Positions 36,759 to 59,100 of a stretch of DNA of 64,000 bases are shown here, piece after piece. Below the pieces are notes generated by a model. That model worked only from the letters and a program-made list of their open reading frames with translations, ran no database searches and was not told the DNA's origin. Positions within the stretch are counted from its first letter, which is position 1; every line of letters starts with the position of its first letter. Position numbers and translations under genes: made by a program. Source of the DNA: Bacteroidota bacterium (GTDB lineage: Bacteria; Bacteroidota; Bacteroidia; Bacteroidales; SZUA-534); contig QKGS01000067.1 in the NCBI GenBank assembly GCA_003250355.1, positions 124,001-188,000 on the forward strand, written 5' to 3'.

Positions 36759-38315
36759 TTATGTATTTGTTTGCATCTTCTCCCAAACCATACTCACCAC
36801 ATTCTTCTCGTCGCTGCTAAAGTGCATACCCACGAAATATATTTGCTTACCGTGGTTCAGGTATTTTTCGTAGTACCGTTTGGTTTTAATTTGGTGCAGA
36901 GCATTTTCGGCGGGCATATCTACTTTAAATTCGAGTATTACAATTTCGTTCGGGCCGGTCAGGGTCATATCGGCTCGCCCTTTGTTGGTGGTATCTTCGG
37001 CATAAGCCAAAAAGCCGAGGCTTGCCATAAAAGTGTACATAACGCTGGCGTAGTAACCCTCGTAAGTACCCATGTTGTTGTTCACATAGTTATGGTACGG
37101 AATGGCAGCGAAAAGTGATTTTATTTCGGTTTCGAGACTCGAAAAGTCTTTGCTTTTCAGAATATTATGAATTTTAAGCTGGTGAGTAGTTTTTTGAGTT
37201 GACATATTGCTCAAATAATCGAAAAATAAGGCGTTGAGCGATTTTTGAATCTCCAGATTAGGTATTTTCATTTTATACAGCAAAAAGCTTTCGTCGCCTA
37301 CCTCCGTATCGAAAGTTAAGTAGCCTGTTTGCCAAAGCAGTGCAACTATATCAATTTGCTCTACATCGAATGCACTTAGTGTTTCTTTTGTTACTACAAT
37401 ATTTTCAAGGTCGGGGAGGTAATATTTATTCTTTTTCAATATGTCAATCAGAAATTTTGGATTACCTGTTTCCCACCAGTAATTGCTGAATTTACCGTTC
37501 TCGGAAAGGAAAAGCAGTATATCGAATGGGTTGTAAATTGGTTCACCGAAATAGTTGTAACCGTTATACCATTGTTTTACCTTTTCTAAATCAATACCAT
37601 CGAGATAGTCGGTAAACGATTCTTTTAAATCATTATGAGTGTAACCGGTTATGGTAGCGTATTTTTCGTTAAGAGTAATGTCTTGAATGTTGTTGAGCCC
37701 GCTGAACAGGTTTAGCTTGCTGAACTTGCTTACACCGGTCATAAATACAAAGCGGAGGTATTGGTCGCAAGCTTTTATTGAAGCGTAAAATCCTCGAAGA
37801 ATATTACGTGCTTCAAGGGCTGTCTCCTTATTTGTTATGTTATCAATTATAGGTTTGTCGTACTCGTCAATAAGCAGTACTACTTTTTGGTTGTATTTTT
37901 TGTATAGGGTTTTAATCAAAGAGGCAAGCATTGTTCCTAAATCAATATTCTCAACGCTTTCTTTGAATGACACATTATTAAATTCGCAATTATCTTTAAG
38001 ATTAGTTGTTATTTTATTTTCAATAAACACTCTGCTCGACAGCTCACCACCTGTAAAGTCAATTTTAATAACCGGGTAGTTTTGTTCCCAGTCGTACTTA
38101 TCGTATATATGCAGCCCCTCAAAGTGTTGTTTATGACCTAAGAAAATTTCTGAAAGGGTATCTAAAAACAGCGATTTACCAAAGTGGCGGGGGCGGGAAA
38201 GGAAGTAGTATTTGCCGTTTTCAGTAAGCTTCAGAGCTTCGGGAGTTTTGTCTATATATACATAATTCTCCTTAGGGTCGCGTATATCTCTAAAAGTTTG
38301 GATTCCTATTGGCAA
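36759..38315 (-). CDS. AAA-ATPase-like protein with PD-(D/E)XK (DUF1703) C-terminus
   Basis: 518 residues in the open frame, which starts at a TTG. It begins LPIGIQTFRDIRD, continues with the P-loop-like SRPRHFGKSLFLDTLSEIF, the Walker B-like VVLLIDEYDKPI, and a C-terminal nuclease-like core ADMTLTGPNEIVILEFKVD. These proteins are very common in Bacteroidota and their job is unresolved. The expected start, an ATG at 38332 giving MDKKK-R-LPIGIQ, is out of frame by one base because of an A8 tract at 38319-38326; with nine A it would read straight through. So the gene is either started weakly at TTG, expressed through slippage, or a recent frameshift. A promoter -7 box lies at 38348-38355. Confidence 0.85.
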   Translation of the reverse strand: MPIGIQTFRDIRDPKENYVYIDKTPEALKLTENGKYYFLSRPRHFGKSLFLDTLSEIFLGHKQHFEGLHIYDKYDWEQNYPVIKIDFTGGELSSRVFIENKITTNLKDNCEFNNVSFKESVENIDLGTMLASLIKTLYKKYNQKVVLLIDEYDKPIIDNITNKETALEARNILRGFYASIKACDQYLRFVFMTGVSKFSKLNLFSGLNNIQDITLNEKYATITGYTHNDLKESFTDYLDGIDLEKVKQWYNGYNYFGEPIYNPFDILLFLSENGKFSNYWWETGNPKFLIDILKKNKYYLPDLENIVVTKETLSAFDVEQIDIVALLWQTGYLTFDTEVGDESFLLYKMKIPNLEIQKSLNALFFDYLSNMSTQKTTHQLKIHNILKSKDFSSLETEIKSLFAAIPYHNYVNNNMGTYEGYYASVMYTFMASLGFLAYAEDTTNKGRADMTLTGPNEIVILEFKVDMPAENALHQIKTKRYYEKYLNHGKQIYFVGMHFSSDEKNVVSMVWEKMQTNT

Positions 38316-38318
38316 TCG

Positions 38319-38326
38319 TTTTTTTT
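38319..38326 (-). repeat. A8 mononucleotide tract between ATG and body of the AAA/nuclease gene
   Basis: On the minus strand ATGGAT is followed by eight A and then CGATTGCCAATAGG. Eight A put the ATG out of frame and lead to a stop after eight codons; nine A would join it to the main frame. Such tracts can change length during replication or slip in transcription. Confidence 0.8.
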
Positions 38327-38347
38327 ATCCATATAATAATGTTTTTG

Positions 38348-58338: not shown

Positions 58339-59100
58339 ATGAAGCCATCAGAATCAAATTTTAAGAATCTTATATCGTTTATAAATAAAAACAAACAACT
58401 CTCAATAAATACTATCGTTGAAATAGGAGCAAGAGACTGTAACGAAACTCTGCTTTTTAATAATGCTTTTCCCAATGCTCAAATATTCAGTTTTGAATGT
58501 AATCCGGCTACTTTACCTGTTTGTAAAAAAAATATATCCGGCATAAAAAATATTAAGCTAATTGAAAAAGCAGTAAGCAATAAAAATGAAACCATAAAAT
58601 TTTATCCTATTGATCAGGAAAAAACCCAAACATCATGGGTCGATGGTAATCCGGGAGCATCGTCAGCTTTTAAAGCTTCAGATAAATATAATGTTGAAAA
58701 ATATATTCAAACCGAAATTACAGTAGAGGCTACTACAATTGAAAACTTATATACTCAGGAACAACTTAGCAGTATTGATGTTTTGTGGATGGATATTCAG
58801 GGTTCAGAACTTAATGCATTAAAAGGAGCAGTAGATAAAATTTCAGATATTAAACTTATTCATACCGAAGTAGAGTTTGCTGAAATATATCAGAACCAAC
58901 CTTTGTTTTGGGATATAAAAAAATATTTGGTTGACAATGGTTTTCTTCTTGTTAAATTTACCTCTTTCAGTACAACATCGGGTGATGCCGTTTTTATAAA
59001 CAAAAGGTATACAAAATCACTATTGCATACTATGAAATACACTATTAACAATAAACTGCTTTATCCGTTTTTATATTATAAAAAAAAGCTTTTTACATGA
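58339..59100 (+). CDS. FkbM family methyltransferase
   Basis: 253 residues from the ATG at 58339 (MKPSESNFKNLISFINKNKQ); an ATG at 58315 is possible and would overlap the ATPase gene. The SAM-binding core shows TIVEIGARDCNETLLF near residue 27 and the FkbM signature VLWMDIQGSELNALKGA near 150. These enzymes put methyl groups on sugar hydroxyls; a glycan of this locus is a likely substrate. The stop codon overlaps the next start in ATGA. Confidence 0.85.
   Translation: MKPSESNFKNLISFINKNKQLSINTIVEIGARDCNETLLFNNAFPNAQIFSFECNPATLPVCKKNISGIKNIKLIEKAVSNKNETIKFYPIDQEKTQTSWVDGNPGASSAFKASDKYNVEKYIQTEITVEATTIENLYTQEQLSSIDVLWMDIQGSELNALKGAVDKISDIKLIHTEVEFAEIYQNQPLFWDIKKYLVDNGFLLVKFTSFSTTSGDAVFINKRYTKSLLHTMKYTINNKLLYPFLYYKKKLFT

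Follow-up and report, generated by a model that had tools for sequence, protein, structure and literature searches.

The DUF1703 family is defined by a Walker A motif resembling RPRRFGKS and a Walker B motif of the form DEYD (PMC1913061). Its expansion within a single genome is already known from Cardinium cCpun, for which 25 paralogs with recombining copies have been reported (PMC6387759); the main text of that paper does not contain the word 'frameshift'. Genes that are interrupted at short homopolymers have been discussed in other settings. In Blochmannia, frameshifts at poly-A/T tracts in otherwise intact genes may be corrected by slippage (PMC3017870). Singleton frameshifts, in turn, have been described as likely indel mutations or sequencing errors, with those validated by BLASTp expected to represent sequencing errors rather than true indels (PMC3711429). 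Here, we describe a member of the DUF1703 family whose start region contains such a tract.

The gene lies on the minus strand of the 64,000-nucleotide stretch of DNA that was analyzed (hereafter, the window), where an open reading frame of 518 codons extends from position 38315 to 36759. Its predicted product matches PF09820 (AAA-ATPase_like) at residues 2-204 with 199.3 bits (curated cut-off 26.1) and, at its C-terminus, the nuclease domain PF08011 (PDDEXK_9) at residues 418-507 with 73.9 bits (curated cut-off 25.5), and its translation includes a Walker A motif (RPRHFGKS) as well as a Walker B motif (DEYD). Judged by its domains, the gene is thus predicted to have the DUF1703 architecture, PF09820 plus PF08011, outlined previously (PMC1913061). 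None of the PADLOC families was matched by the protein at E values of up to 1, so that the role in defense mentioned for this family in a preliminary description of the locus gains no backing. PF09820 is tabulated among the domains of RADAR, PARIS1 and Old-tin (PMC10952713), a listing that we do not take as an assignment of function to the window gene. A structural likeness to AlgQ2 was likewise discarded, with solved structures giving only weak matches at residues 280-333 (E 0.008-0.015) that we take as chance.

Read on the minus strand, the start region comprises an ATG at the position typical of the family, as judged by alignment with sister copies (38332-38330), a GAT codon (38329-38327), a tract of eight A (38326-38319), a CGA codon (38318-38316) and a TTG (38315-38313) that is directly followed by CCA ATA GGA. 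The ATG is out of frame with the long open reading frame; translation from it would yield MDKKNDCQ and then terminate at a TAG (38308-38306). In the long frame, a TAA (38327-38325) is located just ahead of AAA AAA CGA TTG, so that TTG 38315 is the first ATG, GTG or TTG available. The A8 tract represents the longest homopolymer of the leader, and the net one-base difference from other copies falls between the ATG and the CGA. Located 15 nt upstream of the ATG is a TAnnTTTG-like box, TACTTTTG (38355-38348), which aligns with TATTTTTG in other copies and which we take to be a putative promoter motif. This arrangement of promoter box, ATG at 38332, eight A and family start in another frame is exactly as noted in the preliminary description.

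The genome contains 37 matched pieces of the family, 34 of which end no more than 14 bases from a contig end, and the window copy is the only complete one. Several of the others are 80-97% identical to it. The N-terminus is visible in 18 copies, including that in the window. Comparison among them, which had been proposed as a check on the locus, reveals that in each of the other 17, an ATG is in frame with the L of the LPIG motif and precedes it by six codons (18 nt), giving a short basic tail such as MHKRKK, MQKRKK or MYKKKR, whereas this distance is 17 nt in the window copy, leaving it a single base short. As previously stated, one more A would restore the frame. At the same site, the longest A runs in the 17 other copies measure 6-7 nucleotides, and none of these copies has a run of at least eight. 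Their L codon is either CTT (11 copies) or TTA (6 copies) but in no case TTG, and the leader sequence of the window copy is unique among the 18 aligned N-termini.

More distant relatives give the same picture. The comparison of start codons used 22 of 30 such loci. In 21 of them an ATG is present in frame within 12 codons, the remaining one has a GTG only, and none of the 22 shows a TTG at the start position. The remaining loci were omitted because their N-terminus was absent (L042, L045, L049, L063, L066), their match began only at residue 15 (L051) or 11 (L061), or the start of the match was not resolved (L041). Since all 17 copies from the same genome and all 22 relatives have an in-frame ATG or GTG, comparison of these sequences identifies the ATG, and not the TTG, as the family start, with the window copy alone being one base short. 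The possibility that TTG is the normal start in all relatives, raised earlier as an explanation that would dispose of the frameshift, is contradicted by these counts, TTG being absent from this position in all 17 own copies and in all 22 relatives. Among the matches listed for 59 other genomes, the best identity to the window protein is 46%. The closest named relatives (L037, L040 and L042; L038, L043 and L046-L049), which are 45-56% identical, come from a Desulfobacterales MAG and a Nitratifractor MAG that both contain several copies, a distribution that may reflect transfer and repeated expansion or mis-binned contigs. A homolog from a genome of the same family as the source (G006:C12:199688-201214) contains one internal TAA.

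To judge how ordinary the A8 tract is, we considered a 464 kb sample consisting of the window and 20 stretches of 20 kb, in which genes were called by a simple codon-bias script. This sample contains 116 A/T runs of at least eight bases, 69 of them inside called genes. When one base was added or removed at each of these runs (232 run-strand checks), a single place was flagged as a potentially broken gene, at window position 59079, which on reading turned out to comprise two ordinary neighbors with overlapping stop and start. This joining test cannot detect breaks right at a gene's end, and the A8 tract in the window went unflagged. A second test, directed at gene starts and runs of at least seven bases, returned six rows, namely the window copy and five cases with A7 runs, whose called starts are ATG (4) or GTG (1). 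In three of these five (L087, L089, L090), the called ATG lies downstream of the run, and the printed strings of the other two (L100, L092) do not include the run; none was taken as a clear break. The two tests thus identified no other gene in the 464 kb that was clearly broken at an A/T run and, given that runs of at least eight bases are common, a general homopolymer error problem in the assembly, of which we saw no sign, is unlikely.

Genome-wide, the pattern ATGNNNA8 occurs 13 times, compared to 10 times for a reversed control pattern. At nine of the 13 sites, the surrounding frame is open both before and after the run (L123, L124, L126-L129, L131, L133, L134). Three adjoin no open frame of more than 22 codons (L122, L130, L132), and the site in the window is the only one at which a long frame, extending for 500 codons past the run, is closed immediately ahead of the run. 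The length of the tract is therefore ordinary, and its effect on the window gene is the exception. At one of the sites (L133; G000:C70:63445-63432, minus strand), an uninterrupted run of nine A is found in a frame that stays open for 95 codons upstream of the run and for no fewer than 499 codons downstream, indicating that such runs are tolerated in long open reading frames of this genome.

Downstream of the tract, the 518-codon frame contains no internal stop. Its dN/dS values (NG86) relative to 22 paralogous pieces range from 0.05 to 0.33. These low pairwise values reflect constraint on the window copy for much of its separate history, which argues that the break is either recent or has done little harm. 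The changes private to the window copy comprise two nonsynonymous and five synonymous ones (neutral nonsynonymous fraction 0.767; p = 0.009), but this test is weak, because the changes are few (7) and the same count varies widely across the 22 other pieces, from 0:14 to 4:1. Both analyses cover 22 of the 37 pieces, leaving aside the window copy as the query, L024-L030, and seven pieces without a locus. A start at the TTG would remove no more than the short basic tail, because the PF09820 match extends from residue 2 of the resulting product onward. In Flavobacterium johnsoniae, initiation is favored by adenines at positions -3, -6, -12 and -13 (PMC6847099); relative to TTG 38315, there is an A at -6 and -13 but a C at -3. 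The mere occurrence of this codon calls for no selection, as TTG makes up 17.9% of the leucine codons in called genes of at least 200 codons in the 464 kb sample.

Starting from what is directly observed, namely an ATG that is out of frame, a shortfall of one base relative to 17 copies that lack the tract, and a frame that has stayed open and under constraint, we consider it probable that one DUF1703 paralog has undergone a private, recent one-base contraction in its A tract and retains residual expression from the TTG, perhaps with some slippage. The contraction would have affected an uninterrupted A tract between the ancestral ATG and the first domain and most likely arose by replication slippage. 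Initiation at TTG 38315 probably still yields the protein, at a lower level, so that the gene may be rescued in part by this neighboring, weaker start codon, with the short basic N-terminal tail being lost and the Pfam domain remaining entire. Transcript slippage on the A8 tract may contribute a little full-length product. Arguing against efficient use of the TTG, the upstream out-of-frame ATG would compete for initiation, and the C at -3 is unfavorable. Of the three options put forward in the preliminary description, phase variation, transcriptional slippage and a recent frameshift, the last is the best supported, and the best reading is that of a lesion that is recent or tolerated rather than an evolved switch. 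Our confidence in a contraction is reduced by the expectation that BLASTp-validated singletons are errors (PMC3711429). It is conceivable, if rather unlikely, that one A is missing from the assembled tract and that the gene is in truth an ordinary intact family member. The shift amounts to exactly one base and falls within the longest homopolymer of the leader, all sister N-termini are in frame, and the assembly is broken by repeats, as seen from the many family pieces that stop at contig ends. However, the 232 run-strand checks flagged only a pair of ordinary neighboring genes, which argues against widespread homopolymer error; these checks miss breaks near gene ends, and it was the 5'-end test that caught the window site instead. 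Moreover, as the leader is unique among the 18 aligned copies, it does not represent a mixed repeat consensus.

The remaining alternatives assign a function to the tract. Programmed recoding, in which RNA polymerase slippage on A8 or a -1 ribosomal shift at A AAA AAC would give rise to the full-length protein from the ATG, appears quite improbable. A slippery heptamer of the type X XXY YYZ is indeed present in register with the ATG frame (A AAA AAC, 38324-38318), and a -1 shift at this site would enter the right frame. In addition, productive slippage has been suggested in some bacteria for IS elements that have eight A instead of nine (PMC1088944), and rescue at poly-A tracts has been demonstrated for C. 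rodentium tssM1 (PMC4256274), with genes of Blochmannia and Buchnera cited as further cases (PMC3017870). In view of the IS elements and the Blochmannia genes, some slippage product from A8 is plausible by analogy. However, the tract is not kept in any of the 17 sister copies, the gain would be only about six residues, with no evident second product, and the RNA of this region (38343-38235; 109 nt) folds no better than its shuffled versions (z -0.19; 81 of 200 shuffles at least as stable), which speaks against a stimulatory structure within the scope of pseudoknot-free folding. Slippage, for its part, would be expected to involve a conserved run of about nine or more A at the frame transition, whereas the run here is A8 and is not conserved. 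Transcriptional slippage as a function is thus left unsupported, and the same is true of phase variation, in which the tract would gain and lose bases and thereby turn the window copy on and off, a scenario that we regard as very improbable. Its position just 3' of the start codon is one where a change in length would act as an on/off switch, a run of eight A is found only in the window copy among the 18 N-termini, and slipped-strand mispairing at poly-A has been documented elsewhere (PMC3711429). A phase-variable tract, however, would be expected to be common to related copies or clustered homologs, and this one is private, with a run of at least eight A in none of the 17 sister copies; run lengths of this kind are common in the genome, the 13 ATGNNNA8 sites barely exceed the control, and some expression might persist through the in-frame TTG. 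We give least credence, finally, to the idea of a contingency role for the window copy within the family, in which the tract would let this copy alternate between full-length synthesis from the ATG and low-level synthesis from the TTG, with interrupted tracts locking the other copies in frame.

On the preferred reading of a private contraction, the frameshift itself is ordinary and, as such, of little consequence, and we judge the expanded, mosaic gene family to be more interesting than the tract. That a single genome holds closely related copies with 18 N-termini among them poses the more rewarding question. In the alignment of these N-termini, in which the window copy is represented by positions 38470-38230, an exact promoter-region block, TTTTTTACTATTTTTGNNCAAAA, is common to 15 copies. 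Upstream of it, nine copies share AATTAGCGGCTTTAAATC and eight look unrelated, and the start variants combine in a mosaic fashion across the 18 N-termini. Short tandem repeats are visible by eye in many of 18 other 3' flanks, and in all three flanks tried, Tandem Repeats Finder detected repeats with a period of 7-8 (GACTGTG, AGGTTGA and ACCCTGCA; L026:224-299, L012:532-598 and L034:989-1060), with the same program reporting none around the 3' end of the window gene. In one further copy (L024:1385-1773; G000:C69:28852-29240), the frame is broken by an apparent internal deletion that spans the Walker A region, possibly due to an assembly fault, as the break is near a contig end. Another piece (L033; G000:C87:20656-20772) matches residues 477-515 only. 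With 172 bases between this piece and the contig end, truncation there does not simply account for it, and it may be what remains of a copy, a copy altered by recombination or an artifact of assembly. In practical terms, a frameshift may be masked here, as gene callers may assign a TTG start to the window copy. Should the tract prove to vary or to be bypassed, it would offer a handle on the dosing of an expanded family of predicted ATPase-nucleases.

Among the systems with which this locus can be compared, C. rodentium tssM1 likewise has a poly-A tract that parts two frames of one protein (PMC4256274). There, however, the tract consists of 11 A, and two required products were established by experiment, whereas the tract described here comprises eight A at the extreme 5' end of the gene. 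Similar to the Blochmannia genes, the window copy carries a single short homopolymer indel, with the rest in frame and transcript slippage being possible, but the former belong to an obligate endosymbiont, whereas the latter is one of many paralogs and has a TTG directly downstream (PMC3017870). The closest parallel at the level of the family is provided by Cardinium cCpun, which shares with the genome investigated here the combination of PF09820 and PF08011, many paralogs per genome and partial copies near scaffold borders (PMC6387759). Recombination was tested in that system and is suggested here by the alignment only, and several of the copies in this genome are 80-97% identical to the window copy, as opposed to a mean identity of 39% in Cardinium (PMC6387759).
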